This document shows, one piece after another, positions 1 through 22,859 of a stretch of 22,859 nt of DNA. Position 1 is the stretch's first letter. Each line of letters begins with the position of its first letter. A model generated the notes under the pieces. The model was not told the origin of the DNA, made no database searches, and was given only the letters and a program-made list of their open reading frames with translations. Source of the DNA: a virus; IMG/VR virus record IMGVR_UViG_3300037189_002259, positions 1 to 22,859 of that record; one strand, 5' to 3'. A program made the translations under genes and the position numbers.

Positions 1-215
1 GTGAACGCTGCGTTGATTTCTGCTGTGGTCAAGTTGCCATCAACAGATGCGCGCGCTAGACGCTCAATGACTGTGACCACTGCACTGATACCAGCCAGCA
101 TTGCTGACTTGGCGACAGGAATACCACCAATGATTGATGCGCCACCAATGATTGCCATTGCATTGACAATGAATGTGCTGATGATGCGTTGAATGATGCT
201 GACTGCTGTGTTCAT
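1..215 (-). CDS. Holin-like membrane protein, C-terminus cut by window edge
   Basis: The reading frame starts at the ATG at 215..213 and stays open for 71 codons to the window edge. Its ATGA start overlaps the stop of the gene at 212..394. Two hydrophobic stretches (about residues 12-32 and 37-52) are followed by a soluble segment with ERLARAS and DGNLTTAEINAAF. That ending is one I associate with small phage holins, which place a charged tail with an LT..EIN pattern after the membrane helices. In the family such proteins pierce the cytoplasmic membrane to time lysis. Holin function is inferred from this pattern and from the neighbouring small membrane proteins. An endolysin would be expected just beyond position 1 but cannot be seen. 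Confidence 0.7.
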   Translation of the reverse strand, partial: MNTAVSIIQRIISTFIVNAMAIIGGASIIGGIPVAKSAMLAGISAVVTVIERLARASVDGNLTTAEINAAF

Positions 216-394
216 TCTTCTTCTTCCTTTTGTAGTGCTATCGCTGCGAGATTGAGAACTAAGGCTGCGCCACTAATCCACAATCCGATTGTGCGTGTCT
301 GACCAGAAAGCGTGATAAGCACAAGCGCAGTACCTGCCAATGTCCATACAAGACCTGCGAACTCACCCAACAATCTGTTCATACCGTGTCCCAT
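212..394 (-). CDS. Small two-helix membrane protein, lysis region
   Basis: Sixty residues with two hydrophobic helices (about residues 10-28 and 36-54), a short polar turn (SGQTRT) and an acidic KEEEE end. I do not recognise the family. The layout suits a membrane protein of about 6.5 kDa, such as a holin partner or antiholin, because it is translationally coupled (ATGA) to the holin-like gene that follows. The ATG at 394..392 has AGG six bases upstream. The in-frame ATG at 382..380 is a possible alternative start and would remove four residues. Confidence 0.6.
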   Translation of the reverse strand: MGHGMNRLLGEFAGLVWTLAGTALVLITLSGQTRTIGLWISGAALVLNLAAIALQKEEEE

Positions 395-421
395 TCTCGC
401 CTATCGTGTGTGATTCACTCA

Positions 422-1687
422 TCACTTGCGTCTTGCTGATGATGTTGAAGTTGGTACAGCAGACAGCAATGCACCAGCAGCAATCACCAATCTGCGTGTG
501 CTGATGGGAACAGTTGAACCAATCGGAACATAGGAATCAACAGCACCATCAAAGACATTGATTGCTTCTTCAAAGGCTTCACGCACTTCAGTGGGTGCGT
601 CTTGCACTGCTTCCACTAGTGCTGTTATTTCAGCAGCGTCAAGTGTTTCAATGTCTAACGCTTCAAAGATTTCTTGTGCTTGTTCTGGCTCTATCGTTTC
701 AAGCAGTTCAGGATTGGTGGCTAGTTCTGCTGCCTGTTCCGCATCAATGCCTGCGTCAAGAATGTTGGCTACTGCTTCAATCACTTCTGATGCCGTTCCC
801 GTATCAAGGGTGTCTATCAGTTCTATGATTTGTGTATCAGTTTCAGATTGGGGTTCAGATGTGGGTTCTTGAAGTGGCAGTGATGTTGTTGGCATCAGCA
901 GTGTTGTGGTTGGCGCATCGTCTGGTGAAGGTGCAGGAACAGTTGAGACAGGAACAGATGAAGGAAGCGTGGCAGGAAGCGCAGCAGTTGTGGTTGTCGC
1001 AGGAAGTGTTGTCTGAACCTGATGATGTGTGGTCTGTGTTTCAGGAACCAGAGAAGTAGTAGTTGTTGATGCTTCAGTTGTTGTTGTCGGGGCTTGTGTT
1101 GTTGTGGGTTCTGGCTGTGTGGTTGTTGTCGTGGGTTCTGTCGCAGAAACAGTGAACGCTGAATCAGGCACAATCTGCCAATCACCATTGTTGATTCTCC
1201 ACGCCAGCATGAAACAAGTGCCACCACCATTTTCATAGAACCAGCCATCAAGCATCAGTGGTTGTTCTGATTGCAGGGTCATTGGTTCTGTCTCTATCGC
1301 AGTGCAACCCTTATCAGACCAGTCACCCCATTCATATGTTCCAATCTTCATTGTTCCACCATCATCGGCAGCCAACCAAAACTGAATGGTGTTGTGAACA
1401 GGCAAAGTGATGAAGCCTGTGTAATGAACCATGAACAGGTCATTAGGACAGTCAGTGAATGGTTCACCTTCAAAGTTTCTGTTGATGTTGTTTTCTATCT
1501 CGCTGCCACACAAGGTGTGCAGTGATTCATTCTTGGCAGGTGGTATCTGTTCAACGCTGAAGTAGTTTGCGTTGATACCGTTTTCTGCGATGCCACCAGC
1601 GTTTGCGTTCGTTTGCCCACTCGCCAGCAATAACAAGAGAAATGCCACGCTGGTTGATAGGCGTATCAGTCTTTGTGTGCGTGCCAT
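422..1687 (-). CDS. Secreted PA14-domain protein with Thr-rich stalk and helical C-terminus
   Basis: This 421-aa protein has four zones. Residues 1 to about 31 form a signal peptide (basic start, VAFLLLLLASG core, cleavage near ANA). Residues about 32-178 look like a PA14 domain: GINANYF at the start, then VHYTGFITLP and FWLAADDGGT, with several cysteines. PA14 domains are beta-barrels often found in carbohydrate-binding or adhesive surface proteins. Residues about 182-285 are a low-complexity Thr/Pro/Ser stalk. Residues about 288-385 are acidic and helical with repeated EQAxE and LDAAE units. A short hydrophobic stretch (LVIAAGALLSAV) with a basic end closes the protein. It overlaps the preceding gene by 22 bases. 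Export and surface exposure are likely; binding, superinfection exclusion or host modification are only guesses. Confidence 0.75.
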   Translation of the reverse strand: MARTQRLIRLSTSVAFLLLLLASGQTNANAGGIAENGINANYFSVEQIPPAKNESLHTLCGSEIENNINRNFEGEPFTDCPNDLFMVHYTGFITLPVHNTIQFWLAADDGGTMKIGTYEWGDWSDKGCTAIETEPMTLQSEQPLMLDGWFYENGGGTCFMLAWRINNGDWQIVPDSAFTVSATEPTTTTTQPEPTTTQAPTTTTEASTTTTSLVPETQTTHHQVQTTLPATTTTAALPATLPSSVPVSTVPAPSPDDAPTTTLLMPTTSLPLQEPTSEPQSETDTQIIELIDTLDTGTASEVIEAVANILDAGIDAEQAAELATNPELLETIEPEQAQEIFEALDIETLDAAEITALVEAVQDAPTEVREAFEEAINVFDGAVDSYVPIGSTVPISTRRLVIAAGALLSAVPTSTSSARRK

Positions 1688-1860
1688 TCAAAGTGTTTGC
1701 CCAATCTGCTGTCAACGGTATCTATCTTTTCTGCAATGCGGTCTAGTTTGTTTGCGTTGCTTGCGTGGTCTTTGTTGTTCTGTCTGCGTGTCACTTCAAT
1801 CAGCGTCACTATCAGCGTGACTGATGCGCCTATCAACGCAACAACTATCTGTTCATTCAT
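1666..1860 (-). CDS. Small membrane protein with C-terminal helix
   Basis: Sixty-four residues. One hydrophobic helix spans about residues 4-23 (VVALIGASVTLIVTLI). A charged helical tail (NKLDRIAEKIDTVDSRLG) follows and ends in HFEWHAHKD. Phages often encode this layout (one N-terminal helix, heptad-like tail, HxxWH-type end) close to lysis genes, where it is annotated as a holin-like or generic membrane protein. The start ATG lies inside the end of the preceding gene (8-base overlap), so translation is probably coupled. Holin activity is not established by the sequence. Confidence 0.65.
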   Translation of the reverse strand: MNEQIVVALIGASVTLIVTLIEVTRRQNNKDHASNANKLDRIAEKIDTVDSRLGKHFEWHAHKD

Positions 1861-1984
1861 CTGATGTCACTAGTGGTGCAGGTGCGTTGGCTTGGTCTTG
1901 AAGATACTGTGCGTATTCTTCATCAGTCATTTCACGCACTAGGTCATCAATTTGAACTAGTGGTTTTGTTAGTTCATTACTCAT
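1853..1984 (-). CDS. 43-aa hypothetical protein
   Basis: A 43-residue acidic frame. It is supported by a TAATG overlap with the stop of the tail-fibre-like gene at its start and an 8-base overlap with the next gene at its end. The core DDLVREMTDEEYAQYLQD is amphipathic, and the REMTxEEYAxY pattern is familiar from the ends of phage tail-associated proteins. I cannot assign a function. Its Asp codons fit the absence of GATC in the window: GAC is used before the codons CTA and CAA, whereas Asp codons before G are mostly GAT. Confidence 0.6.
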   Translation of the reverse strand: MSNELTKPLVQIDDLVREMTDEEYAQYLQDQANAPAPLVTSDE

Positions 1985-2532: not shown

Positions 2533-2556
2533 AATTAGTTTTCCTTTTTCATAGTG

Positions 2557-4224
2557 TCACCAGCCAAGTTTGTTTTGGTCAAGTATTCCAGCAGATGTGT
2601 CATCAAGAATGAGAAATGGTGTCAAACCAATATCAGCAACATAGTAGGTGAATCGTGATTCTGATGGTGTAGCAGTGAACGCTGAACCAAGAATGGTGCA
2701 GCGAAAAGTTGTGCCACGAAAAGTTATGAAAGTTGTGTAGCCAATAATGTCCCACCAGCCATAGCCCAAATCCAAAGACCAACTATTTTGTGCATCTGAC
2801 TTACAAGTGATTTCAGAAATACCAAAACCATTATCACCATAGATACCAAGAAGATAGTTGGCTAGGTCTGTTGCCTGTGACGCACTTGGGCTGTATGTGT
2901 TCTGGCGCAGCGTGCGATATGGGGCAGTTCCATATGTGACAACAACATCACCATAAGAATAAGTGTTCAATTCAATTTCTGTGAAGAAATCAGAAGATGC
3001 AGAATCAAACACAATTCCGTCATACACCTGATTAGTGCTGTTGTTTGTTGTGTCGCTGAACTGCACAGGCAAAGTACCAACAATGTCACGCCCATTGACA
3101 CCAACAATGTTGTTGTCAGAACCATCTTTGATTGTTGCACCAACAGTGGCGCACGCAGTGTTCAACCAAACTGCTAGAGAATCACCAACTTCAGATGCAG
3201 ACAACTGTGGTGATGTTGAAGCGGTGTATGTCGTTCCATAGTTCAAGTTGGTTCCAGCAAGAACATTGCTCAACTGTGTCAGCAAGTCACTTGCAGCAAC
3301 AGCCAAACTATTACCCTGCAACCTTCCCCACTGCGCCAACGCACCTTCACATTCAATTTCAACATTGTCTGCGACACCTGTTCCTGTGCTGCTGTTGTAT
3401 GGGATAGCCCACTGTACGCTGACATTTCTGATTCGCCCTGTCCACATTGTATAAGTAGAACCTGTGCGCTTGACCCTGATTTGTGTGTTCACTTTCAACG
3501 CTGTGTTCTGCGCGCTGAACCCTGTTGGGTATCTAGCACTGATAGTCATGCGTGATGGCTCAAAAGTGTCGTTGATTCCTTGCCTGCCAACAAACCCTGA
3601 AATCTGCTGCACATTAGTTAGCGCAAGCCATGTTGTAGTTGGTAACGCTGAAGGTGAACCATTTGCCACACCTAGCCAATATGCGTTGGTTGTTGAGCCA
3701 TCAAAGTATGAACCAACAGATGCTGATTGTTCAAGCATCATTCCATCAATCAACACAGCATTGCTGATTGCGCCATTGCTGTTTTGATAGAGAACATAGA
3801 CAGATGCGTAGTAGTCATTTGTTCCAGCAGTGACAGAAGCAGATATGCGTTGCCACCCGCCACCAGTAGTGATGCTGGTGATAGCACCTAGTGTGTTGTT
3901 GCGTTGCGTTCCAGTTGAATCATAGGTTCTAATTCCCAAACGCATATTGCGTGAAACACCAGCAGTGATGAACACATACGCTGATGCTGTGTATGTGTTG
4001 CCTGCAACAATGCGTGCCTGATTTGTTGGTGTCGCATACTCATTAGATGTGCTGTTAGTTGTTGCGATAACTTGCAGACAGTATGTGCCTGAGTACGCAC
4101 CAGAAGCAATCACACTTGCAGTTGAACCAACCAGTGACCCATCATAGGTGTTGCTTTCAAATGATGGATTGAACAACAAGTTGTTGCGTTCAAGTTGGTA
4201 TTCAACTGTGTATTGCTGTGGCAT
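2557..4224 (-). CDS. Minor tail protein with N-terminal carbohydrate-binding-like domain
   Basis: A 555-aa structural protein encoded directly after the tape measure (TAATG overlap at 4224), the usual place for distal tail or tail-hub proteins. Residues about 14-170 form a jelly-roll unit like the CBM4/9 or galactose-binding family: NPSFESNTYDG at the start, then YSGTYCLQV, YTASAYVF, WQRISASV and IDGMMLEQ. Residues about 190 to the end are beta-rich with FxVRQGxNDTF-like and RYPTGF features, and resemble a tail-tip component. Likely roles are tail-tip assembly plus initial binding to host glycans. The hub-like assignment is less certain than the carbohydrate-binding fold. Confidence 0.75.
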   Translation of the reverse strand: MPQQYTVEYQLERNNLLFNPSFESNTYDGSLVGSTASVIASGAYSGTYCLQVIATTNSTSNEYATPTNQARIVAGNTYTASAYVFITAGVSRNMRLGIRTYDSTGTQRNNTLGAITSITTGGGWQRISASVTAGTNDYYASVYVLYQNSNGAISNAVLIDGMMLEQSASVGSYFDGSTTNAYWLGVANGSPSALPTTTWLALTNVQQISGFVGRQGINDTFEPSRMTISARYPTGFSAQNTALKVNTQIRVKRTGSTYTMWTGRIRNVSVQWAIPYNSSTGTGVADNVEIECEGALAQWGRLQGNSLAVAASDLLTQLSNVLAGTNLNYGTTYTASTSPQLSASEVGDSLAVWLNTACATVGATIKDGSDNNIVGVNGRDIVGTLPVQFSDTTNNSTNQVYDGIVFDSASSDFFTEIELNTYSYGDVVVTYGTAPYRTLRQNTYSPSASQATDLANYLLGIYGDNGFGISEITCKSDAQNSWSLDLGYGWWDIIGYTTFITFRGTTFRCTILGSAFTATPSESRFTYYVADIGLTPFLILDDTSAGILDQNKLGW

Positions 4225-6803
4225 TATCCCTGAACCCTTAGTGGCAACGCACCATTCTGGCGTTGGTATCGGCGCAACGCATCAACAACTGCGTTTGGGT
4301 CTGCGCTGGTCACAGTCACATTGATGATGGTATCTCCACCCATCGCACCCATCTTTGACAATGGAATCACTGCTTCAGGTTCACCACCTTCAGCGATGAG
4401 CGCAAATGTGGGTTTCATAGCAATGCCACCTTCAGCAAGCGTGGCAAGACCACCAACGCTGATACCAGACCAGTCAAAGCCTGACATACTTGCAGAAGGC
4501 ATAGACACAGTAGAGCCAGTAGAACCAACACCAGCAGTGGGTGAAGGCACAGTAACTGTCACAGGTGTATTCAACTGCTTCAACAGTTTGTTGGCTGCTG
4601 CTATCTGCGATTTGGTCAAACCACCCTTTGCCTTGCGCAACAAGATTTCAGCCTTTGCCAGATTGCGTGTCACTTCTAGTTCACGCTCTTTGGCATCACG
4701 CACTTTGTCAATGGCTTCAACCTGTGCATCTTGCGCTTCTTGCAATTCAATCAATGCGTTCTTGTATGTATCGCTAGTTGTAGCAGCACCATTGATTGTT
4801 TCATTCAGATTTGTTTGTGCAGTGTTCACAGCAGTGGTTGCATCAGCAACAGCCTTCTGCGCATCTTCCTGTGCAAAGCGTGCTTCAGCCAAAGCAATTT
4901 CTGCTTCTGCAATCTCTCTAGGGTTGTTCCGTCTGCGTGCCTGCTCTAACGCTTTTTCAGCATCAGACACTGCGTAGTTGGCTTTTGTCAGGTCATAGCC
5001 TGCTTGCGTAGCGTCACGGTTCGCCCTGTTCAATCCTTCTTGCGCTGTCTGTGCTTCAGTGCTACCAGCCCCATAGCCCTGCGCAATCCTGTTCAGTTTG
5101 GCTTGTGCAGCAGCAACATTGTCTGTGGCTGTCTGCAAAGACTTCTGCGCAGTCACTGTGTTCTTGAACGCATCACGCAGGTTCTTCTGGTCAGAAACAA
5201 CAGTGCGTGCAGCATCGCCAAACTTTTTGAACTTTTCAGCAGCAGTCAAGATTATTTTGCCTGCTTTGTCAGTATCGGTGGTGTCAATATTCAAGCCAAG
5301 ACCCTTGAATAGTTTTTGATTGGCAATGTATTGCTGTTGTGATTTGGTCAGTTCATCAAGAGATTTTTTGTATTTCTTTGCATCACCAGCAGAAACTGTG
5401 AAACCTTGCCCACTTTCATTCCAATATGTGAAACCCCTGCCAGCCTTCACTGCTGCGTCAATACGCTCTTTCAACACTTTCAAAGAGCCTGTTCCCTTTG
5501 TCAGGTATTCTTCAAAAGCACCAACACCTTGCCCACTTAGATTCAGCATGAAGGCAAGGTTGCTGAGATTTCTGCTTGATAGCAGCAGTTGCTTGATGGC
5601 TTCCTTCTGTGCATCTCCTTCTTCATAAAGTGCATCAGTGAAGTTTTGTGTAGCAGATGTTGCTTTTGATTTGTTGCCTGCATAAATCGCATACAAACTT
5701 GCTGCGATGGTGAGCAAGGCTGTCACACCACCAGCAGCAAGCATTGCAACTTTTGTTGCGTTCAGCGCAACAATCTGTGCTTTGAGCGCACCTGTTGTCA
5801 CCTGCGCTGCAATAGTCAACGCTGTTTGAACTGCTGTGTAGGTAATGACAGCAACCTTCAACGCACCAAACAAACCAATGATTACTGTGATGGTTTTGCC
5901 CATGTTGCCCATGTTCCAGACACCACGCACAATTGACCCAACTAAGTAATTGAATGCGCCACCTAGACCACGATTACCAAGAATGGTTGAGAACTGTTCA
6001 ATCACAGGAACAACTTTGTCAATCACAAAGTTTGCGAAGCGTTCCACATAAGGAATGAGAACAGTACCCAAATCTTCAGCAGCGTTACCTAGTGCCACAC
6101 GCATACGGTCAAAGCCAGTAGCACCAGCAACAGCAGTGCCACCAACCTGTGATTCAACTTCTTTCAGAATCATCTTCTGCGCTTCAAGGGTTTTGCCTGT
6201 GGCAACAAGCGTCTTGATTTGTTCCTTCTGCTGGTCAGAGAAGTTCACACCTGCACGCTGAAGTGCGTTGATTCCCTTGACAGGGTTTGACAGTGCCTTG
6301 CCTAGCATCTTTGCAGCAGCATCAGTAGAACCAAAGACATTGCCCAAATCCAATGCAGCCATTGAAGCCCTATTGAAAATGTCGTTGCCTTTGCCAACTT
6401 CATTGCGTACTTGCTTGAAAGTCAGCAACAGGTTCAAACTTGATTGGATTGCTTCATCATCAATACCTGTTTTCACAGACAATGATTCAGCAAAGTTTGC
6501 AACCTGCTTTGCTGTCATGCCTGCTGCACCACCAGTGGCAGCAACAATTGCTTCAGTCTGCTTCATCACCTTCTGTGATTCATATGCAGCCTTGACAAGT
6601 GACCCACCAACAACACCAGCAACACCAGCAGCAATGCCACCAAACTTTGCAAAGTTCTTTCCTAATGTGTTGACTGCTTTGTTGGTTGATAGCAATACTG
6701 ATGCGCTCTTGTCGCCAGCGTTGTCTAGTTTCTTGAAATCAGCGATGGCTTTGGTGATTCCCTTTGCATCAAAGGTACTGATGATGGGTACTACAACAGC
6801 CAT
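4224..6803 (-). CDS. Tape measure protein
   Basis: At 859 aa this is the longest gene in the window and sits in the expected place after the chaperones. It has an N-terminal Ala/Gly-rich hydrophobic patch (about residues 55-72), a phage tail tape-measure core (roughly 75-270), a cluster of hydrophobic helices (about 300-375), and a long Ala/Lys/Gln/Glu-rich coiled coil (about 540-710). The C-terminus (LAEGGIAMKPTFALIAEGG, then EAVIPLSKMG) is shared by many tape measure proteins. These proteins set tail length and pass into the host membrane during DNA entry. At about 0.15 nm per residue the tail would be near 130 nm. The start ATG lies two bases after the previous stop. Confidence 0.93.
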   Translation of the reverse strand: MAVVVPIISTFDAKGITKAIADFKKLDNAGDKSASVLLSTNKAVNTLGKNFAKFGGIAAGVAGVVGGSLVKAAYESQKVMKQTEAIVAATGGAAGMTAKQVANFAESLSVKTGIDDEAIQSSLNLLLTFKQVRNEVGKGNDIFNRASMAALDLGNVFGSTDAAAKMLGKALSNPVKGINALQRAGVNFSDQQKEQIKTLVATGKTLEAQKMILKEVESQVGGTAVAGATGFDRMRVALGNAAEDLGTVLIPYVERFANFVIDKVVPVIEQFSTILGNRGLGGAFNYLVGSIVRGVWNMGNMGKTITVIIGLFGALKVAVITYTAVQTALTIAAQVTTGALKAQIVALNATKVAMLAAGGVTALLTIAASLYAIYAGNKSKATSATQNFTDALYEEGDAQKEAIKQLLLSSRNLSNLAFMLNLSGQGVGAFEEYLTKGTGSLKVLKERIDAAVKAGRGFTYWNESGQGFTVSAGDAKKYKKSLDELTKSQQQYIANQKLFKGLGLNIDTTDTDKAGKIILTAAEKFKKFGDAARTVVSDQKNLRDAFKNTVTAQKSLQTATDNVAAAQAKLNRIAQGYGAGSTEAQTAQEGLNRANRDATQAGYDLTKANYAVSDAEKALEQARRRNNPREIAEAEIALAEARFAQEDAQKAVADATTAVNTAQTNLNETINGAATTSDTYKNALIELQEAQDAQVEAIDKVRDAKERELEVTRNLAKAEILLRKAKGGLTKSQIAAANKLLKQLNTPVTVTVPSPTAGVGSTGSTVSMPSASMSGFDWSGISVGGLATLAEGGIAMKPTFALIAEGGEPEAVIPLSKMGAMGGDTIINVTVTSADPNAVVDALRRYQRQNGALPLRVQG

Positions 6804-10271: not shown

Positions 10272-11576
10272 TTAGAAGGTTGGGGTCACAAGCGCAGTGC
10301 CTGTTACCTTTGCCCATGCATTTGGGTAGCGGTTTGCCGTGTATGCGCTGTAGCCATAGACAACTGCAAGAATGTCAAGTTCTGCTGCTTTTGGCTGGTC
10401 AAAGCGCAGGTACATTGGCGCACCATCGCCATCTTCCCAAAGATGCAATTCATTGGTGTCACCAATGTAGATTGCGTCTTGGTTTGTTCCTGCACCTTGG
10501 TTGGTAGCAACATTGGCATCTGTAACCACAGGAAGTCCTGCGATTGCATAACCACTGTTTGCATAGCGAACCACGCCACCATCGCCAACTGCAAGTGCGT
10601 TCATTGGTGATTGTGGAACTGGTACTGCCAATGGGCGGTTGGTGGTGTCAAGTGCTGCAAGAATCCAAGCCAATCGGCGTGGGTGCATGACAATCACATT
10701 TGGGTTGCCGTAGTAGGTGGTTTGAACCTTCTGGATTGCGTCAAGCAGTTTGGGGTACAACTCAGCAACTGTTGGTGATGCGTCTGTTGCAGTTACGGAC
10801 TGACCAGCAGATGCTTCAATTTCAGCAACAACTTGTGCGTCAAGTGTGGTGTGGTATGAACGGATAAGGTCATTCATTACCAACGCATCAACACCTGTGC
10901 CACGCTCTAGAGCCTGACGGGAAACTGTCTGCTGACCAGCAACAGTGACAACGCTGATGTCCAACTTGGTGTCGTCCATGTTGGTTTCAGAAACAGCAGC
11001 ACCTTCAGACTGAACAGCAGTGCTTGAACCTGTGGTCACCTTGCTGATGCTGATGGTCAAGCCAGCAGCAGGCAGTGCGTGCTTGCGTGCGACATCTGCA
11101 ACAGGTCGTCCTGCGCGCGCCAATGGTGCAGCAAGTTCAGTCAAGAACTGTGGAACAATCAAGCCAGCAAAGTTTGCTGAAGTGACATCACGGCGTTCAA
11201 CTTTTTCTTCATTCATGTGGCGTGCAAGACGCTCTTTGGCTACATAGTCGCCATTGAACTGTGCAGCAAATGCGTCAGCCAAGAACGACACACTGCGGTT
11301 TTCACGGCTGTATGTGCGTGGCTCAGACTTGACAACAGCAGGTGAAGCAAGACCAGCATTGGCACGCATCTCTGCTGCTTTTGCGTTGCGTGCTTCAAGT
11401 TCCTTGTGCTGTTCAATCTGTGCATCAAGTTCTTGTGCGGAACGGAGAGCAACGCCGATTTGGTCATTCTCTTCTGTGGTCAGGTCACGCACTTCTGCTT
11501 CTGCTGCATCAACGATGCCTTGTGCAGTTGCAAGATGTGCGTCACGCTTTTCAATCAACTTTTCTGAAAGTGCCAT
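10272..11576 (-). CDS. Major capsid protein, HK97 fold
   Basis: A 434-aa protein encoded right after the prohead protease. Residues 1 to about 100 are a charged, coiled-coil delta (scaffold) domain (for example AQELDAQIEQHKELEARNAKAAEMRA). It would be removed by the protease, probably before or around the FLADAF segment. The rest matches the HK97 capsid family: SANFAGLIVPQF, KVTTGSSTAVQSEGAAVSE (the P-domain/E-loop region), then NVIVMHPRRLAWIL, GLPVVTDANV and YIGDTNELHLWEDG. It builds the icosahedral shell. A GGAAG ribosome site precedes the ATG. Confidence 0.95.
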   Translation of the reverse strand: MALSEKLIEKRDAHLATAQGIVDAAEAEVRDLTTEENDQIGVALRSAQELDAQIEQHKELEARNAKAAEMRANAGLASPAVVKSEPRTYSRENRSVSFLADAFAAQFNGDYVAKERLARHMNEEKVERRDVTSANFAGLIVPQFLTELAAPLARAGRPVADVARKHALPAAGLTISISKVTTGSSTAVQSEGAAVSETNMDDTKLDISVVTVAGQQTVSRQALERGTGVDALVMNDLIRSYHTTLDAQVVAEIEASAGQSVTATDASPTVAELYPKLLDAIQKVQTTYYGNPNVIVMHPRRLAWILAALDTTNRPLAVPVPQSPMNALAVGDGGVVRYANSGYAIAGLPVVTDANVATNQGAGTNQDAIYIGDTNELHLWEDGDGAPMYLRFDQPKAAELDILAVVYGYSAYTANRYPNAWAKVTGTALVTPTF

Positions 11577-11638: not shown

Positions 11639-13012
11639 CTAGTTGACGGCTCTTGCCATCGCTATTGCAATTTGTGCTTTGCGTAGCGATGTTGGTGCAA
11701 CGGTAGCAACTGTTGTATCAGTTGAATTGCTGTTGCGAATCTCTGCGCTGGTTTCTTCATAGGCAGGATAGGTCACGATAGACACATCATGCAGTTTGAC
11801 TTCTCGCAGTTCACGCACTGTGCGGTCTTTGTTCCACGCATCTTTGATTGTTTCAAAGGCAAAAGACATTTGTGAAACATCGCCACGCATCAACGCGCTG
11901 CGCATCTTCACTGCGTCAGGGTTGTTGGGGTCTAGGCGTGCTTCCATGTATAAGCCTTTTTCATCTTCACGCAGTTTCAGTGTTCCTGACTTGGTGCGCG
12001 CCAATGGCACACCTGTGTGGTCAATAAGCAAACGCACATCAGCACCATCTTTGATGGTCTTACGGAATGCACCACGCTTCACATACTCTGTCCAAGGCAA
12101 AGGTTCTGAAGGTGAATCAAACACTGCTGCGTATCCAGATACAGTCCAGCCATCTTCACTGTCATCAAGCGCACGCAGTTCTAGGTTGGTGTATGCAATC
12201 TGCTTGCGTTGTTCACCACTTGTTATCACCCATCTGTTCTCGCGTACAGGTGATGCGTGGCGTTCTTCTTCAAGTTCAGCATCAAGTTGGTCAATGATTC
12301 CTTGCGCGTAGTCCATAGTTCTTTGTGCTTCTTCCTTTGTAGAACCACTGCCCCACAGAAGATGAGCCACCACACCTGCTGTGATTTCACCATCTGCTGC
12401 TTCTAAGTCCACCATATGTCGTGCTATCCAAGGTGCAATCTTGCGCCACTTCTCAGGGGTCACTTCACCTGATGCCATCTTGCGCGCATCTTCAACTGTC
12501 TGTGGTTGTAGCCCATCACCAGACAATCCTTCTTCGTGGTATGCAAGACCACGCTTGGCATTGTCACGCATGAACTGTGGTGGTGATAGGTCAATCTGTC
12601 GTTGTTCTCTTGAATCCATTTCAACTTCAAGTTCATCTTCATCTTCAGATTCACCCATAGGTTCAATTGATACTTCACCAATCTTTTCAGTGATTTCATC
12701 AAGAATGCTTTTCACTGCTTCATACGCACGCCTTAGTGCGTCAACTTCCATTGAAGGGTCAGCCTGATTCATTTCATACTGTTCATTCAAATCTTCATCA
12801 GTAATCAATTCAGCATTGGTCAACAAAGCGCGTGTTGCCCAATCACCCATTGGTTCAAGTTCTTCAGACAATGACACAGCAATCATCTGGTCAATTGCGT
12901 CTTGCTTTGTTTGATGACAACCAATGGTTTCAGGGGTGCTGTCAGGTGTATCAGCCTTGATGGTTGCCCACCCTGCGCAGTCATTCATTTGGTCACTGAT
13001 GTAGTAAGGCAT
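11639..13012 (-). CDS. HK97-family prohead protease with long N-terminal extension
   Basis: A 457-aa protein. I start at ATG 13012 (MPYYISDQ), preceded by AGGA six bases upstream, rather than at the TTG two codons earlier. The protease domain is C-terminal (about 285-430): LRALDDSEDGWTVSGYAAVF, LLIDHTGVPLART with H332, and DVSQMSFAFE with S383. These are the His and Ser of the HK97-type (S78/U35) maturation proteases. Before it lie an N-terminal YISDQMNDCAGWATI unit, an acidic zone (about 115-145) and a helical domain (about 150-255: AKRGLAYHEEGLSGDGLQ, then WIARHMVDL and HLLWGSG). Usual family members are near 200 aa, so this one carries at least two extra domains. Confidence 0.88.
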   Translation of the reverse strand: MPYYISDQMNDCAGWATIKADTPDSTPETIGCHQTKQDAIDQMIAVSLSEELEPMGDWATRALLTNAELITDEDLNEQYEMNQADPSMEVDALRRAYEAVKSILDEITEKIGEVSIEPMGESEDEDELEVEMDSREQRQIDLSPPQFMRDNAKRGLAYHEEGLSGDGLQPQTVEDARKMASGEVTPEKWRKIAPWIARHMVDLEAADGEITAGVVAHLLWGSGSTKEEAQRTMDYAQGIIDQLDAELEEERHASPVRENRWVITSGEQRKQIAYTNLELRALDDSEDGWTVSGYAAVFDSPSEPLPWTEYVKRGAFRKTIKDGADVRLLIDHTGVPLARTKSGTLKLREDEKGLYMEARLDPNNPDAVKMRSALMRGDVSQMSFAFETIKDAWNKDRTVRELREVKLHDVSIVTYPAYEETSAEIRNSNSTDTTVATVAPTSLRKAQIAIAMARAVN

Positions 13013-13014
13013 TC

Positions 13015-13275
13015 TCAATCCTGACTTGGTGTAAGCACACGCACTTCTTCAGTACCTGTGGCAGTGATTGCATACAGTTCTTCATTTGCTGGAAGGAACA
13101 TTTCTAATGGCACAGCATTCTTTTCTGTCAACATTCCATTTGCGGAAGTGACATCAGCACCACCTATATAGACAACGCCAGCACCAACAGCGTGCAGATA
13201 GACAGTTCTGTTGATGTTGTCTGATGCAACAATCTTCACTCTTGTTGTGGACACTGAATAGGCTTGTGATTTCAT
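13015..13275 (-). CDS. Small beta-rich head protein (decoration-like)
   Basis: An 86-aa protein between the portal and protease genes. Its ATG overlaps the portal stop (ATGA). The pattern TVYLHAVGAGVVYIGGADVT, then LEMFLPANEELYAITATGTEEVRVL, predicts a compact beta barrel. I recognise it as a frequent small phage protein with VYIGG.DVT and LYAI motifs. Roles proposed for such proteins include capsid decoration or a head-associated fibre; neither is shown here. Confidence 0.65.
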   Translation of the reverse strand: MKSQAYSVSTTRVKIVASDNINRTVYLHAVGAGVVYIGGADVTSANGMLTEKNAVPLEMFLPANEELYAITATGTEEVRVLTPSQD

Positions 13276-14483
13276 TCTTCCACCAAACTATCTACGCCCA
13301 ATGTGGGCAAATCGCCACCTTCAACACCAGCAACAGGTGCGCCAGCAATACCAAGAATGAACTGGTCACCACCTGTGTATGGTTCTCTGCCTTCAATCTG
13401 GCGTGCTTCATTAGGTGTCAAAGTGCCAGACATAATCATTGTTTGTTGTGCGCGCACTCTTGTCAGTTGGTCTGCTCTTGCAAACTCATTCACATCAAAG
13501 CGCACATACTGTGGTCTTGGTAGCAAGTCAGAAATCAAATCTTCAAGACGCTTGCACCAAGGAAGCAAAGTGTGTCGCAGGAAGTTGATACCTGCTGATT
13601 CAATGTTCTGATAGGTCTGGTTGTCTCCACCTGTGCCATTTATCATGTGTAGTGGGATTCTGTATGCGCGCGAGATATCGCGCACGATTGCTTCACGGTA
13701 GTTGATTGTGTCCATGTCTGAAGCAGACACTGTGACGCTGCGCCACTTCAAGCCACCTGTCAACACTGCTGGCTTGCGGTTCTTGTAGAGCGTGTCCACC
13801 CATGTCTGACGCAACACTTCTGCTGATTCAGCAGACAAGTTTGAATCAGTTTCAAGCACTGAAGATGGTGTTGCACCATCGCCATAGAACTGCGCCAAGA
13901 AACGGTCAATGGCAATGTTTGTGCCGATTGCCTGACGCAGTGAATCAATGGGAGACAATCCACGCACCTGATTAGGGAAACGCAACCAATCAACTTGCTT
14001 CAATGTTTCACTGGTGAACACTTCATTGCTGCCAGTAATCATGTAGGTGCGCTCACCATAGGTGCTGCTGTTCGTGTCCATATCTATCTTGATGGTCACT
14101 CTGTCAGGGTGAATGTTGCGCAGTTCTACAACCTGCCCACCTTCACGGGGCGCATACACAAAGCAAGTTCCATGCACAGCAAGTGTTGCAATGAACTGAT
14201 GCACAAAGTCAAACATTGATTGTTCTGCGTTAGGTCTTACCAACACCAATGGCTTAGGCAATCTTTCATACCTGTTGCCAACTTCACGGTATAAGTCAAG
14301 TGGCATCATTGCTACGGAATCAGCAAGCAATGTCACAGCAGCCATGATTGTTGTTGATGTGAATGCACTGTTCTGGTCAACGATTTCACCAGCAGAAGAC
14401 GCATACGCTGGTCTAGCAGTCAGCCCTGTTGGGTCAATCGTGGGTGGCAACGCACGCACTTCTTGCCTTCTGAAAAGGCTCAT
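13272..14483 (-). CDS. Portal protein, HK97 family
   Basis: A 403-aa protein. Markers of the HK97-type portal include the early wing helix (SAFTSTTIMAAVTLLADSVA), PLDLYREVG, MFDFVHQFIATLAVHGTCFV, IHPDRVTI and GLSPIDSLRQAI. The stem and crown region has DISRAYRIPLHMING followed by LLPWCKRLEDLI, and a C-terminal NEARQIEGREPYTGGDQF. A dodecamer of this protein forms the DNA channel and docks the terminase. The start overlaps the preceding membrane protein gene by four bases (ATGA). Confidence 0.95.
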   Translation of the reverse strand: MSLFRRQEVRALPPTIDPTGLTARPAYASSAGEIVDQNSAFTSTTIMAAVTLLADSVAMMPLDLYREVGNRYERLPKPLVLVRPNAEQSMFDFVHQFIATLAVHGTCFVYAPREGGQVVELRNIHPDRVTIKIDMDTNSSTYGERTYMITGSNEVFTSETLKQVDWLRFPNQVRGLSPIDSLRQAIGTNIAIDRFLAQFYGDGATPSSVLETDSNLSAESAEVLRQTWVDTLYKNRKPAVLTGGLKWRSVTVSASDMDTINYREAIVRDISRAYRIPLHMINGTGGDNQTYQNIESAGINFLRHTLLPWCKRLEDLISDLLPRPQYVRFDVNEFARADQLTRVRAQQTMIMSGTLTPNEARQIEGREPYTGGDQFILGIAGAPVAGVEGGDLPTLGVDSLVEE

Positions 14484-14612: not shown

Positions 14613-16082
14613 TCACCATACAGATGCAATCATAGGTGTTGGCGTACCACTATTGCGTCTAGTTGCTCTATCTATCGCCATGCACATTGCAATGCACGCG
14701 TCAATCTTCCTGCGTGACTTACCTTTGGACAATCGCCAGCCTTGCTCAGTCATACGCTGTGCAGCAGACAGCACTTGGTCAGTGAACATTGGTGAACCAT
14801 CGTGCGCAACCTTCTTTCCCACAATCAGTTCATAGGTTGTTCCGCAAGCAGGAATCATGCGCTGTGATGACTGTGGAAACTCAACCATTGGAAGCCCATC
14901 ATCATAGAGTGCTTCCGCACTGCGCTGGAAGAACGCAGGGTCATACGCAAACTCTTGAATGTTCAATTCATCGTGCAGTGAACGCAAGTGCTGTTCAATG
15001 GCTTGAATGTCAATGCCGTTCATGTCGGGGTGGAATATCTTTGCTTGCACTGCAATCTTTCCGTCATCGTGTGGTTGTGCAACAACAATGCCGATGCTGT
15101 CGTGTTTCAACGCCATGTCAATACCCACCCACGCAGGGTCATAGGCATTGATGATTGCTGCGTCAGGGTTGTTGCAGTTCTCCCATGCGCCAGCAGGCAG
15201 CCACGATTCCTGCGCACGCACCCACTGGTTCAATCTGAACCTGCGCACAGATGCTTCTGATGATTGCTGTGCAGACACTTTCAAGTCATCAGCATCAAGC
15301 AAACCCAACACCAGATTGGGGTTTGATTTCTTCCATTGCTTTTCATCATTGATGTCACAATCACGGTCTGATTCCCACCACCAGAAACCCCAATAAGGGT
15401 CAACTACTTCACCTGCTGCAACTTGCTTGCCGTACTGGTACAACCTGCCACACAGACTTTCTAAGTCATAGCCAGCAGTAGTGATAGCAACCACTAATGG
15501 GTCAAGACGCGCGCCAGAACCCATAGTCAATGCGTCATACAAATCATCATTGCGTTGCACATGAAGTTCATCAAAGATGACCAGCGATGGGTTCAAGCCT
15601 TGCGCAAGTTTTCCGTCAGCAGATAACACACGGTAGATAGCGTTTGTTGATGGCACTTCTATTGCGTCACGGTACACCTTGCATTCAGCAGATAGCGCAG
15701 GTGATTGCTGTATCTGATGCTTGGCTTCTTCAAACACGATGCGTGCCTGTTGTCTGTCACCTGCTGCTGAATAAACTTCTGCACCTGCTTCACCAGCAAA
15801 CAAACCATAGAGCGCAAGCGCAGAACCCAACAGTGACTTGCCTTGCTTGCGTGGCAACCCAATCAACGCACGCTTGTAGCGCAACCTGCCACTGTCATTG
15901 CGTTCAAGCATTTCACGCAACAACCACTTCTGCCAATCAGTGAACACCAAAGGCTGATGCGCTTTCACACCTTTGGTCAAACGCAAGAAGTGTTCAGCAA
16001 AATCAATCACATCATCACCATCAGTTGTGCTGTTCTGTGATGGTGTGTAGAACGCAGGCTGCCACAACTGCTTAGGCTTCAT
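14613..16082 (-). CDS. Terminase large subunit
   Basis: A 489-aa protein from ATG 16082 (MKPKQLWQPAF), overlapping the small subunit stop by 11 bases. The ATPase part has a Terminase_1-type Walker A (GLPRKQGKS, residues 75-83) and Walker B (LVIFDE, 167-172). The C-terminal RNase-H-like nuclease shows WVGIDMALKHDS, the first acidic site, and KIDACIAMCMAIDRA, the last acidic site. The enzyme drives DNA into the prohead and cuts the concatemer. An HNH gene lies just upstream of the small subunit. In HK97-like phages such pairs occur with cohesive-end packaging. Confidence 0.95.
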   Translation of the reverse strand: MKPKQLWQPAFYTPSQNSTTDGDDVIDFAEHFLRLTKGVKAHQPLVFTDWQKWLLREMLERNDSGRLRYKRALIGLPRKQGKSLLGSALALYGLFAGEAGAEVYSAAGDRQQARIVFEEAKHQIQQSPALSAECKVYRDAIEVPSTNAIYRVLSADGKLAQGLNPSLVIFDELHVQRNDDLYDALTMGSGARLDPLVVAITTAGYDLESLCGRLYQYGKQVAAGEVVDPYWGFWWWESDRDCDINDEKQWKKSNPNLVLGLLDADDLKVSAQQSSEASVRRFRLNQWVRAQESWLPAGAWENCNNPDAAIINAYDPAWVGIDMALKHDSIGIVVAQPHDDGKIAVQAKIFHPDMNGIDIQAIEQHLRSLHDELNIQEFAYDPAFFQRSAEALYDDGLPMVEFPQSSQRMIPACGTTYELIVGKKVAHDGSPMFTDQVLSAAQRMTEQGWRLSKGKSRRKIDACIAMCMAIDRATRRNSGTPTPMIASVW

Positions 16083-16551
16083 TAGCACGCTTTCTAGCAA
16101 CAGACTTTCTGAACTGTTCCATCTCTGATTCAACCTTCACTGCTTGCAAACCAAGTCTTGACCTGTCCACTGGTGTCAGACCTAACGCACAGATAACACT
16201 GAAGCGTGACTTCTCCAGATTGCGTAGTGCTGCTCTATCGTGATAGTCACCATCAACAATCACCTGTGTGCGCAACGCTGCATATTCTTCTGTCATCTCG
16301 CACAACATCTGCACAAGTTCAACATCAGTGTCAGGTCTAATCCACACAGCAGAAGATGACCACAACGAATCCCACAATTGCGCACCAACACCACCAGCAA
16401 TCAACGGTCTGATTGGTTGTGGCACACCAGCGTTCTTTGCGTCAATCGTTCCAGCAACAATCGCCAGTTCAGCCTTGCTTGCCTGACCCAATCTTGCTTT
16501 CACTTCAGCAGGTTTCTTATTCCTGCCACCACTGTTTCTTGTTCCAGCCAT
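16072..16551 (-). CDS. Terminase small subunit
   Basis: A 159-aa protein from ATG 16551, which has an AGAAGG ribosome site; the longer frame upstream runs through the intergenic signals and is rejected. It begins AGTRNSGGRNKKPAEVKARLG, a basic, Gly-rich start typical of P27-like small terminases, followed by helices (AELAIVAGTID, then VQMLCEMTEEYAAL and DRAALRNLEKSRFSVICALGL). Its role in the family is to bind the packaging site and load the large subunit. Identification rests on position and pattern. Confidence 0.85.
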   Translation of the reverse strand: MAGTRNSGGRNKKPAEVKARLGQASKAELAIVAGTIDAKNAGVPQPIRPLIAGGVGAQLWDSLWSSSAVWIRPDTDVELVQMLCEMTEEYAALRTQVIVDGDYHDRAALRNLEKSRFSVICALGLTPVDRSRLGLQAVKVESEMEQFRKSVARKRANEA

Positions 16552-16760: not shown

Positions 16761-17069
16761 CTAGGTGGTTCTGTTCCCCCTACGGCTGTTGCAGGTTCTG
16801 TGTGCTGGAAGTAGTGGTGAGTTCAGGTCTGCTGGTATCAGGTGGTCTGCTGTCCAAGGGTCATCTGCTCTTGTTCCTTCTCCACAGAGCCAACACACCT
16901 GTGCTGTGTCCCTGACCTGCTTGGCAACTCTGCGATACTCAGAGTCATAGTGGCGTTTGTCCCTGTGGCGTTGGCGTTGGTTGTTGCGTTGCAGTTCGCA
17001 TTTGTCGCAGCGTGATGGGTTGTGGTGCATCGTTCCACAGGTGAGACAGGTGCGTGGTGGTCTAGGCAT
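16761..17069 (-). CDS. HNH endonuclease beside the terminase
   Basis: A 102-aa protein from ATG 17069 (MPRPPRTCLTCG); the longer frame to 17186 would overlap the preceding gene. Two Cys pairs at the N-terminus (CLTCG, CDKCE) and another later (CWLCG) can bind zinc. The catalytic part reads TADHLIPADLNSPLLPAHRTC followed by NSRRG, with the DH, the central Asn and the terminal His/Asn of the HNH fold. Free-standing HNH proteins encoded next to the terminase assist cohesive-end cleavage in HK97-type phages. It starts eight bases inside the end of the previous gene. Confidence 0.88.
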   Translation of the reverse strand: MPRPPRTCLTCGTMHHNPSRCDKCELQRNNQRQRHRDKRHYDSEYRRVAKQVRDTAQVCWLCGEGTRADDPWTADHLIPADLNSPLLPAHRTCNSRRGNRTT

Positions 17070-17292
17070 CAGTGTTGCTTTGTTGTTGGTTGTTGATGCG
17101 TGTGTGCAGGTAGGTGTTGCCACAGTGCCAGATGACTTGCCATTCAGGTAGGTCAGGTACTGATGGCTTGTCACTGACAAGTTCAATCAGTTCTGGTTCT
17201 TGTGGGTAGTGGCAGATTGGGCAGCGTTGCGCTGTGATTGTGATTGGTTCTGTTGCGCGCAGATAAGCGTTGCGTGTTTCTTCAATGTCCAT
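17062..17292 (-). CDS. 76-aa zinc-finger-like hypothetical protein
   Basis: The ATG at 17292 shares one base with the previous stop (TGATG). The protein has a Cys-x2-Cys-His set (CPICHYPQEPE) and a later WHCGNTYLHTR, suggesting a single zinc site in a domain of about 45 residues. The end is polar (NNQQQSNTDA). The family is not recognised. It sits in a run of small genes ahead of the HNH gene, and a DNA- or protein-binding role is only a guess. Confidence 0.65.
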   Translation of the reverse strand: MDIEETRNAYLRATEPITITAQRCPICHYPQEPELIELVSDKPSVPDLPEWQVIWHCGNTYLHTRINNQQQSNTDA

Positions 17293-18671: not shown

Positions 18672-18693
18672 ATTGTTATTTGATGAGACTTGT

Positions 18694-18900: not shown

Positions 18901-18917
18901 TGGTTTGGTTTCCTTTG
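18901..18917 (-). repeat. Start-associated leader repeat, family B
   Basis: CAAAGGAAACCAAACCA (minus strand), directly abutting the ATG at 18900. Identical base for base to 19439-19455. Confidence 0.7.
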
Positions 18918-18929
18918 ATTGTTGTTGTG

Positions 18930-19438: not shown

Positions 19439-19455
19439 TGGTTTGGTTTCCTTTG
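19439..19455 (-). repeat. Start-associated leader repeat, family B
   Basis: CAAAGGAAACCAAACCA (minus strand), directly abutting the ATG at 19438; exact duplicate of 18901-18917. Confidence 0.7.
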
Positions 19456-19471
19456 TTAGTTGATGGGTGTG

Positions 19472-19864: not shown

Positions 19865-19868
19865 ACCT

Positions 19869-19966
19869 GTCAGATTAGCACCACTAATCACCTATCTGAC
19901 GCATTTGGGGCAGATTTCTTTCTAGCCCCTAGAAGGCTTGCTAATGGCTGTGGGCTGGTTCAGCCC
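19869..19966. promoter_or_regulatory. Cluster of three inverted repeats before the small-gene cluster
   Basis: First, GTCAGAT/ATCTGAC arms at 19869-19875 and 19894-19900 enclose a second stem, GATTAG/CTAATC (19873-19878 and 19884-19889). Second, GGGGC-AGA/TCT-A-GCCCC at 19907-19929 gives an 8-bp stem with one bulge. Third, GGGCT/AGCCC at 19952-19956 and 19962-19966 has a 5-base loop. None has a U-run, so a classic terminator is not evident. The 153-base gap between methyltransferase and small-gene cluster is therefore probably regulatory. Confidence 0.45.
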
Positions 19967-20017
19967 CTTCCAGCCCCCAAGAACGCTCACAGGGCTTCCT
20001 GTGCGCTCTGGCAGGGT

Positions 20018-21352
20018 CTAGAACAGGGTTGGCTGCTCAGGCTCTCTAGGTTGCTTCAAAGCCCACTCAACACGGGCATTGATGATGGGCAGGTAATCGG
20101 CTGTCAGTTCCATGCCGATGCTGTTGAACCCTTCCAGCACTGCTGCCACCAGTGTTGTACCTGACCCTGTGAAGGGGTCTAGAACTGTTCCGTTGGGTGG
20201 TGTCACCAATCTGACTAGGTAACGCATCAGCGCAATTGGTTTCACAGTGGGGTGAAAGTTCTGTGTTGGCTGGAATCTTCCAAACGGATTCCCACTGTCA
20301 CCTTCTAATGCTTTCTCCATGTGATTTGGTCTGAAGTTTGCTGCTGCTTTCCATTCAGCAGGCATTCCTTCCAAGCCTGCGTTGCGTTCAGCCTTGCTTG
20401 CCTTAGCGCAATAGAAGAAGCGTGCAGCAGAACCATCATCACCGTATCCCAAATCATTCATTGCTGGTTTTTTGTTTTCACCACCAAATGTGTTGCCACC
20501 ACTATTGCGCCTAATTGCTGTTCCACCTTTGGTGTCGGGGAATAGTGCAAGCACTTCTTCTGAACCATCATGAATAAAGTTCGCAGGGAATCTTCCAAGT
20601 TCTTTCAGTTTTGCTAATGCTTCCTGCTGTGCAGGTGATTCAAGAACCCTGCTGCGATACTCATCATCTGTTTCGCCTTCTCTGCGTGTAGCAAGTTTCT
20701 GAATTGGTCTGCCAACAACATTGTCAAAGTTGTCTGTTGTTTCCACCCTGCACCCATCAATGTTGATGCCACCAACACCATGCTTCAAAACATTGTTTGC
20801 CACTGTTCCGTCAATCGGTTTCCTAGCCATCACAATTGGTTCATGCGCTGGTTTCAACGCTGTACCCCAACCAGACCACTGCTGCGCTTCATCAGTAGCA
20901 GGTGCAGTAATCAGTTCTACTTCACCTGCACTTGCATTCATCTTGATGTTTGATGCTGATGAGTTTGCTCTTTGTTTTTTTTCACCAATCACTGTGCGTT
21001 CTGCACCAGCAGCCTTGTCAATCGCTTTGCTGATGTCTAATGACTTGGGAAAGCCAGAGCCATACACCCACATAATCTGGTCACGGATTTCAAACCCTGC
21101 ATCTTCAATCGCCACAACCATTCTGTGATAAGTGCGTGAACCACTGAACGCAAGAAGATGCCCACCAGACTTCAACACACGCAAACATTCAGACCACAGT
21201 TCAACACTGTATGCAATACCTGTGCTGTCCCATTTCTTACCCATGAACCCAAGTTCGTATGGTGGGTCAGTGACAATGGAATCAATGCTGTTGTCTGGCA
21301 GTGTGCGCAACAAGTCAAGGTTGTTGCCGTGAAGGATTCGTGGTGTGTTCAT
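20018..21352 (-). CDS. Orphan DNA methyltransferase, beta-class (N6-A or N4-C)
   Basis: A 444-aa protein from ATG 21352 (MNTPRILHGNN) with AGAAAG upstream; the longer frame to 21424 overlaps the previous gene. Catalytic motif IV DPPY is at residues 29-32, within TDPPYELGFMGKKWD. The SAM-binding FTGSGT is at 394-399, inside VLDPFTGSGTTLVAAVL. Motif IV ahead of motif I defines the beta class of amino-methyltransferases. Between them lies a long variable part that should hold the target-recognition domain. No restriction enzyme gene is adjacent. The recognised site cannot be read from sequence. It may protect phage DNA from host restriction. Confidence 0.9.
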   Translation of the reverse strand: MNTPRILHGNNLDLLRTLPDNSIDSIVTDPPYELGFMGKKWDSTGIAYSVELWSECLRVLKSGGHLLAFSGSRTYHRMVVAIEDAGFEIRDQIMWVYGSGFPKSLDISKAIDKAAGAERTVIGEKKQRANSSASNIKMNASAGEVELITAPATDEAQQWSGWGTALKPAHEPIVMARKPIDGTVANNVLKHGVGGINIDGCRVETTDNFDNVVGRPIQKLATRREGETDDEYRSRVLESPAQQEALAKLKELGRFPANFIHDGSEEVLALFPDTKGGTAIRRNSGGNTFGGENKKPAMNDLGYGDDGSAARFFYCAKASKAERNAGLEGMPAEWKAAANFRPNHMEKALEGDSGNPFGRFQPTQNFHPTVKPIALMRYLVRLVTPPNGTVLDPFTGSGTTLVAAVLEGFNSIGMELTADYLPIINARVEWALKQPREPEQPTLF

Positions 21353-21372
21353 CAGTGCTGTCTTTCTGGTGG

Positions 21373-21828
21373 TTAGTTTTCGCCGTAGAACGCTTCTAGG
21401 GCTGGTGCAATTATTTCTGCCCATACTGACAGACGCACCATCACCAACCCATCAGACCAGCCATCAGGCATCAGGACAGCGCGTGTGGGTTTGCGTCTAT
21501 TGCCAAAGTCAGGTGCGTTAGAAAGCACTTGCTGTTCAATGCGTAACCATGCAGTGACAGCAGGTTGAATCTGTTTGCCTGCTTTCACTTCATTGGCAAA
21601 CATTGATTGCCAGCGTTCTTCATTGCCATCACCAAACTTGTGTGACGCACCAACACCAAGTTGCTTGCGTGCTGTCCGTTGCTTGCTCAATCCTTTGCGC
21701 CGATTGCGTGCGCCCCTGCAACGATTGCACACACAGCCACGCACATGACGCTGGTTGGTGATGTTGCCAAACAGACCACAGCCACATGGGCAGTCACCTT
21801 TTCTGGCTGGTTGTTCTTCTGTGGTCAT
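21373..21828 (-). CDS. Zinc-knuckle protein with PD-(D/E)XK-like nuclease core
   Basis: A 151-aa protein. The ATG at 21828 overlaps the previous stop (ATGA), so I reject the upstream TTG. The N-terminus carries a dense Cys/His set (C13, C15, C17, H28, C32, C34, C37) followed by a basic RNRRKG. Further on, NEERW (E70/E71) and NEVKAGKQ (E80-V-K82) fit the E...ExK layout of PD-(D/E)XK nucleases. The ending PDGWSDGLVMVRLSVW resembles phage Holliday-junction-resolvase-like proteins. A DNA nuclease with zinc-assisted binding is my best reading; the specificity is unknown. Confidence 0.55.
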   Translation of the reverse strand: MTTEEQPARKGDCPCGCGLFGNITNQRHVRGCVCNRCRGARNRRKGLSKQRTARKQLGVGASHKFGDGNEERWQSMFANEVKAGKQIQPAVTAWLRIEQQVLSNAPDFGNRRKPTRAVLMPDGWSDGLVMVRLSVWAEIIAPALEAFYGEN

Positions 21829-22631
21829 GTCCAGCAATACCCTGAATCACAACCGTTCTCACCGATACCTAGACCCTGAAACAGTGAATCTTGTGCGACT
21901 GCAACTGCTTCATCTAGTGGTTTGCCGAATCGGGTGAGATACACAGGGTTCTTGCCACGCTCTTGATTGCGTTTGTTCATGTGTCTTTCAATCTGCACTG
22001 ATTGTTCAAATAGTTCTGGTTCATCTCTGCGCATTTCAGCCCATGTAATCGGTCTGTGGAATGGGCAGAAGAAGCATGATGATTTGGGTGGCACAGGTAG
22101 CCCTGCATCTCTAATCACTGCAACGCAGTCGTTGCGTGACAAACCCAAGTCAAGCAGTGGGTACACACGCTTCTGCGCTATTTCATCTTTGCCCCTACCA
22201 GCACGCTCTATTTCATCAGTGCTGATACCGATTGCGACTAGCGCAGGGTCTGCTTTGGTTGCACCATTGGCTTTCAACCATCTGCCAACTGTCTTGACTT
22301 TGAAATCAACTGTGCAACTGCGTGACAGTGGTGCGCCTATGTCGCCATACACAGGAATGACATTACGCAGTGAACCTTCACGCATGATTTCATTCTTGAT
22401 AGTTGTTGGTTCTCCCCTGCGAACAGTCAACAGTTCATGGACAGGGAAATCATGTGCCTGTGCATATGGCTGCATGACTTCACGCACATACTTCAATGAA
22501 TCAGGGTGTTCACTGTCATCACCAACATTGCTGAACAATGCAACTTCAAAATCAATTTTGCGTTGAATAGCAAGCACAATCATGGCTGTGGATTGGACAC
22601 CACCACCATATGAAATTGCTTTCAGGGTCAT
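21825..22631 (-). CDS. PAPS-reductase-like adenine nucleotide alpha-hydrolase
   Basis: A 268-aa protein. SYGGGVQS (residues 7-14) is the SGG-x-QS pyrophosphate loop of the PAPS-reductase/ATP-sulfurylase-like (PP-loop) superfamily. SRSCTVDFKVKTVGRWLK is the family's (S/R)xCTxxxKxxP-type region. Cysteines C106, C186, C189 (SSCFFCPF), C261 and C266 (CDSGYC) could hold an iron-sulfur cluster. DndC, which activates sulfur for DNA phosphorothioation, is in the same superfamily, but no other dnd gene is visible. It lies next to a nuclease-like gene and a methyltransferase, so a nucleic-acid modification role is more likely than sulfate assimilation. The substrate is unknown. Confidence 0.75.
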   Translation of the reverse strand: MTLKAISYGGGVQSTAMIVLAIQRKIDFEVALFSNVGDDSEHPDSLKYVREVMQPYAQAHDFPVHELLTVRRGEPTTIKNEIMREGSLRNVIPVYGDIGAPLSRSCTVDFKVKTVGRWLKANGATKADPALVAIGISTDEIERAGRGKDEIAQKRVYPLLDLGLSRNDCVAVIRDAGLPVPPKSSCFFCPFHRPITWAEMRRDEPELFEQSVQIERHMNKRNQERGKNPVYLTRFGKPLDEAVAVAQDSLFQGLGIGENGCDSGYCWT

Positions 22632-22667
22632 TGTTGCTTCTTTCTTGCTGTCACATGACTGATGGTA

Positions 22668-22859
22668 TCAGTCAGTGTTGCGCAGTTCTTCCACAATCGC
22701 TTCAACCACGCTGTCACGCACCCTGCCCATCTCAATACCAATGATGATTGCTTGCAGTAATCGTTCAAAGTCTGCGTTGCGTTTGCCTGCTTTGGTTTGT
22801 GCTGGCTCATCAATGCGTTCATCAGTTGTGTAGTTCACACGGAACTTGGCGTGAACATA
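22668..22859 (-). CDS. Unknown protein, N-terminus outside window
   Basis: An open frame of 63 codons from the window edge to TGA at 22670..22668, reading YVHAKFRVNYTTDERIDEPA and onward, with a helical end (LLQAIIIGIEMGRVRDSVVE). It is preferred over the competing frame at 22628-22822, which looks random. The start lies beyond the window. No family is recognised. It ends 36 bases before the PAPS-reductase-like gene and is probably in the same operon. Confidence 0.6.
   Translation of the reverse strand, partial: YVHAKFRVNYTTDERIDEPAQTKAGKRNADFERLLQAIIIGIEMGRVRDSVVEAIVEELRNTD

Follow-up and report, generated by a model that had tools for sequence, protein, structure and literature searches.

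Absence of many restriction-site words from the genomes of an uncultured tailed phage and its relatives

The DNA studied here, virus record IMGVR_UViG_3300037189_002259 (22,859 bases, hereafter the window), is a fragment of a tailed phage genome of approximately 29 kb from an uncultured family. The phenomenon is genuine and represents an extreme form of an established strategy, restriction-site avoidance: several four-letter words and a range of longer enzyme sites are wholly absent, and related phages lack different combinations of them. We consider it very probable that the missing words result from selection by many type II (including type IIS) restriction-modification systems in the host population.

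Results

Words missing from the window

Exact counting gave zero copies of GATC, AGCT, TCGA, GGCC, CCGG, ACGT and TTAA in the window, as had been claimed in an earlier note made from the sequence alone. The only other four-letter words with a zero count were the non-palindromic CCTC and its complement GAGG (the MnlI site, absent from both strands), which that note had overlooked. It had also stated that other palindromes occur, and all of these were counted, i.e., CTAG (55), GTAC (36), CATG (70), TGCA (184), GCGC (144), CGCG (28), AATT (35), ATAT (27) and TATA (6). The absence of the seven palindromes extends across all 29,437 bases of G001, a relative that is 98.8% identical to the window.

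In 300 synonymous shuffles, which kept the proteins and the codon usage fixed, the expected copy numbers were 65 for TTAA, 81 for AGCT, 66 for TCGA, 69 for GATC, 57 for ACGT, 30 for GGCC, 20 for CCGG, 40 for GAGG and 33 for CCTC, with z values across words of -5 to -12. By this measure the 60-90 copies per word that had been expected in the note were about right for five of the palindromes and overestimates for GGCC and CCGG. Maximal-order Markov modelling gave low expectations for CCGG (3.6), TCGA (9.5) and TTAA (9.7) because the sub-words of these words are themselves depressed, therefore the codon null is the fairer of the two. The depletion stands under both of these controls, and an artefact of composition and codon usage is thereby ruled out.

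The number of purged sites exceeds that first estimate, since about a dozen longer sites had also been overlooked. The window has zero copies of CCWGG, GGWCC, GGATG/CATCC (FokI), RGCGCY, GGYRCC, CTGCAG, GTGCAC, RAATTY and WGTACW, among others, and the loss of the FokI site holds on both strands. An unbiased scan of 381 testable 5-mer classes in the window, with 4-mer counts accounted for, found only CCAGG, CATCC and GGACC missing, which are the sites of EcoRII (CCWGG), FokI and AvaII (GGWCC), respectively. Missing 6-mers in G001 include CTGCAG, GGCACC (GGYRCC), GTGCAC, CCATGG, and both AGCGCC and AGCGCT (RGCGCY), the last pattern being at zero even though GCGC occurs 197 times in that genome. 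Nearly all 5- and 6-mers found absent by the unbiased scan are known enzyme sites. Among the degenerate 6-bp palindromes expected often enough in G001 to be tested, 9 of the 16 with a known enzyme were absent, compared with 5 of the 167 with none known (p = 3.7e-8), and the direction was the same in four relatives (p = 7.5e-6 to 4.1e-11), these p-values being approximate as the patterns overlap. A greedy count of non-redundant absent REBASE specificities gave 19 under the Markov null and 25 under the codon null for the window, and 17-29 per genome for its relatives. Most long type IIG-like sites showed no broad loss, in line with the published pattern of avoidance in dsDNA phages (PMC6286503).

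In G001, G003, G005 and G018, GTAC persists as a 4-mer, but its flanking bases almost never complete WGTACW or a 6-bp palindrome. These GTAC sites are seldom common to relatives (2 of 28 between G005 and G003).

Different word sets among relatives

Relatives were retrieved via the terminase, portal and capsid proteins, and the family survey comprised 99 records, a number that includes fragments and near-duplicates. Within it, AGCT was at or near zero in 88 records, ACGT in 64, GGCC in 60, CCGG in 48, TCGA in 42, GATC in 41, CGCG in 40 and TTAA in 37, while CTAG and GCGC were so in none. At equal length, the mean number of absent 4-mer classes was 3.8 in the family and 0.40 in random viral contigs, a nearly tenfold difference.

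The combinations differ from phage to phage. G005 is free of CCTC, CCGC and all of the seven words but ACGT, of which it carries 47 copies. The 30-kb G018 has zero copies of AGCT, TCGA, GGCC, CCGG, ACGT, TTAA, CGCG, CCTC, CCGC and CTCC, with GATC at the expected level (120 vs 116), and G017, which is 87.5% identical to G018, has 79 copies of TTAA where G018 has none. Pairs that are 87-88% identical in DNA differ by 79/0 for TTAA and 36/0 for TCGA. Pairs above approximately 91% DNA identity have word sets in common save for a few low counts, and sets differ at 85-90%. Two further patterns were seen. In G005 (L030, L031), each of the 47 ACGT copies sits within CACGT, with A, T or G but in no case C as the next base, and the copies lie at more regular distances than chance would give (coefficient of variation 0.63); and CATG and TGCA have been purged jointly in two sub-clades (L099, L100, L132, L134).

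How the words are lost

Alignment of related genomes shows the route by which the words disappear. Between G017 and G018, none of 54 aligned TTAA sites was kept, compared with a mean 4-mer retention of 0.68, and 41 of the 54 were lost through one substitution. The changes comprised 45 transitions and 25 transversions (40 synonymous, 18 not), and the escapes were varied, including TTGA, TCAA, TTTA, TAAG and TTAG. Likewise, every aligned ACGT and TCGA site was lost in the comparison of G005 with G003 (ACGT from 39 to 0, TCGA from 26 to 0), as were all 62 aligned GATC sites in that of G018 with G001. The words vanish via independent, mostly synonymous substitutions, a pattern characteristic of selection acting site by site rather than of a single mutational process.

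Leads to the host

Judged by the terminase large subunit and the capsid, the closest isolates are distant (phiPsal1 39%, mycobacteriophages 35-39%; phages of Actinomycetota), therefore the family has no cultured host. No tRNA genes that could serve as a clue to the host were found in the relatives. A capsid search of genomes returned one close match, in an Acidimicrobiia metagenome-assembled genome (MAG); strong matches occurred in 5 of 395 Acidimicrobiia genomes, and among 397 genomes of the phylum only in that same MAG. From these sequence matches, an Acidimicrobiia family is the best lead to the host; this falls short of proof, since a MAG may include phage contigs binned by mistake.

Within 222 genomes of the candidate-host family, a C5 methylase was found in 28, a D12 methylase in 19 and an N6/N4 methylase in 89. 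The C5 methylase loci with a guanine-plus-cytosine (GC) content of 43-50%, close to that of the phage, sit in different restriction-modification pairs: HpaII-like (CCGG, 9e-105), HaeIII-like (GGCC, 2e-55), Bsp6I-like, and two without an assigned specificity. An NaeI-like system is likewise among the differing systems of this family. The HpaII-like and HaeIII-like specificities match words missing from the phage, and the candidate-host systems fit a repertoire spread thinly over a population. The DNA of the candidate hosts is not itself depleted of the words, which is what methylated hosts would be expected to show. In one Acidimicrobiia genome (L309:411-3958), an HaeIII-like restriction pair adjoins an AspBHI-like modification-dependent endonuclease.

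Gene content and phage methylases

The main genes of the window all lie on the minus strand (Table 1). G001 looks circularly permuted and near complete, because its start and end fall elsewhere in the gene order than those of the window, and its additional ~6.6 kb carries genes for a VanY peptidase, an SLT transglycosylase, and YqaJ and ERF recombination proteins. Among those genes of the window and G001 that were scanned, a subset of the open reading frames, no integrase turned up.

Table 1. Genes annotated in the window
Feature	Position	Strand	Supporting matches	Remarks
Tail tape measure protein	4224..6803	-	PF06791 3.8e-07	
HK97-type major capsid protein	10272..11576	-	PF05065 1.3e-14; phrog_2263 1.5e-50	Query for relatives and host leads
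Prohead protease	11639..13018	-	PF04586 4.4e-42	
Portal protein	13272..14483	-	PF04860 1.9e-74	
Terminase large subunit	14613..16133	-	PF20441, PF03354; phrog_9 9.8e-129	Query for finding relatives
Small HNH endonuclease	16761..17186	-	phrog_338 2.8e-06	Adjoins terminase
DNA methyltransferase (N6_N4_Mtase)	20018..21424	-	Pfam PF01555 2.6e-31	
PAPS-reductase-like protein	21825..22631	-	phrog_424 8.4e-34	

Among 20 records, a full homologue of the window methylase is present only in the window and G001, and in none of the 18 other relatives. Methylase motifs occur in only a few whole genomes, in methylases other than that of the window, and most purged relatives, including the widely purged G003 and G018, are without a recognisable methylase; the window methylase was accordingly rejected as the cause of the purge. 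Structure matches place the methylases of the window, G005 and G017 in the general HhaI/HaeIII, CcrM, RsrI and PvuII classes, a level of assignment that does not settle specificity. The two relatives in which a word has returned, G017 (TTAA) and G005 (ACGT), carry methylases that are missing from their purged sisters (L034:11171-12112 and L031:5859-6896). A swap between purging and methylating is possible in both.

Discussion

The suggestion in the earlier note that the lineage faces many type II systems is supported by the match of the missing words to enzyme sites, the differences in word sets between relatives and the mostly synonymous point changes. Type II restriction as the selecting force is the most economical reading, and it explains the enzyme-specific contexts, the loss of type IIS sites from both strands, the variation among relatives and the pattern of substitutions. 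Under such selection, an unmethylated site in an infecting genome would put it at risk of being cut, and variants that lose the site would survive better; over time, mostly synonymous point mutations could remove every copy, at which point protection would be full. A phage lineage that met many host strains with different systems would come to avoid all of their specificities combined (about 19-25 in this case). Should a system be lost from the hosts, or the phage be otherwise protected, the word would drift back, and related phages would come to carry different combinations. The absences, their fit to known enzyme sites, the turnover of word sets and the way in which sites mutate are demonstrated directly; we infer the selecting enzymes, the host, and a repertoire that is population-wide rather than that of a single strain.

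Several observations weigh against this account. Genomes of the candidate-host family look individually poor in restriction systems, and enzymes for AGCT, TCGA, TTAA, ACGT and GATC were not located in that family, an exception being one Dam-family methylase at 46% GC. The family has a Bsp6I-like system (GCNGC), yet the phage shows no depletion of GCNGC (127/161 in G001), and neither a methylated motif nor a methyltransferase was detected in an Acidimicrobiia bin from Lake Biwa with 50% GC (PMC6329791). AAAA/TTTT, a homopolymer and not a restriction-like word, is nearly gone from four relatives (L129, L112, L113 and L135; 0/123, 3/134, 2/111 and 0/65, respectively). Finally, CAGGCG (0/11), AAGGCG (0/8) and GCGGAC (0/12) are absent in G018, G017 and G014 without an enzyme that can be named; these three words are candidates for new specificities.

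The most serious rival is a single host species or strain with ~20 type II systems of its own, a load that Helicobacter or bloom cyanobacteria can reach. In some genera a genome can indeed amass a great many such systems (PMC8262939), and the purged words are all missing together from one genome. However, in the sole host lead methylase genes are few in any one genome and the systems vary from genome to genome, and the word sets shift piecemeal between related phages, so that we regard a single such host as rather unlikely. The methylase encoded in the window, and the other methylases of G005 and G017, might suggest that the phage's own methylation or another DNA modification causes the loss of words or is linked to it; this is very improbable, since, besides the rarity of methylases among purged relatives, methylation protects a site and would relax purging rather than cause it.

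Explanations without restriction fare no better. Words containing C are common among those lost, as might be expected if they were eroded without selection by a mutational process, for instance the deamination of methylated bases, but TTAA contains no C, the escapes are varied and mix transitions with transversions at mostly synonymous positions, and a mutational bias would not give exactly zero for many words simultaneously; we give this process very little credence. Most purged 4-mers are palindromes, which could point to a general aversion to palindromes, or to base composition or codon usage. Yet TGCA and GCGC are common, CTAG and GTAC are retained, the non-palindromic CCTC and GGATG are missing, RGCGCY is lost while GCGC is abundant, and the codon shuffles predict tens of copies of each missing word, leaving these causes with a negligible probability. 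An artefact of library preparation or assembly can be dismissed with similar assurance: every sequence is a metagenomic assembly, but the missing words vary with the sample, the substitutions at aligned sites are clean coding changes, and the pattern is not seen in random viral contigs.

Restriction-site avoidance by double-stranded DNA (dsDNA) phages was reportedly described by Sharp in 1986, and the avoidance of restriction targets by plasmids is said to be a graded effect, unlike the total loss of many words seen in this phage. The underlying principle, mobile DNA avoiding restriction targets, is common to plasmids and this phage (PMC10359461). In dsDNA phages, the sites avoided are those of orthodox type II systems, with palindromes foremost, and complete or near-complete elimination, as seen here, occurs mainly in non-temperate phages; excluded sites made up 3.9% of the experimental phage-site set of Rusinov et al. 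(2018), given as 7.5% elsewhere in that paper (PMC6286503). The present case differs in its scale, a single genome being wholly free of ~19-25 specificities, and in the combinatorial turnover seen across the family. It also resembles the accumulation of restriction systems and 'viral memory' by methylation, as a population-level arms race over many systems; in that model phages carry host methylation, whereas here the sites themselves have been removed from the genome (PMC8262939). We found no earlier report of such breadth and combinatorial turnover in the open-licence full-text literature, and to that extent the novelty lies in how many specificities have been purged together and in the way their combinations change within a single phage family.

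These genomes illustrate the extent to which restriction by itself can mould a genome, a phage of 23-29 kb having been rewritten, mostly synonymously, to dodge ~20 specificities. Beyond selection by type II systems as such, we see about an even chance that the phage genome is a negative imprint of the repertoire of its whole host population, i.e., ~20 specificities of which most are carried by few strains each, that the changing sets in relatives record how uncultured hosts have acquired and lost restriction systems, and that the unexplained absent words predict new specificities. If this is true, words missing from assembled phages could reveal the restriction systems of uncultured bacteria and aid the matching of phages to hosts, the pace of turnover in host defences would be measurable from the span of DNA identity over which word sets change, and the upkeep of restriction diversity in nature would become directly testable from sequence.

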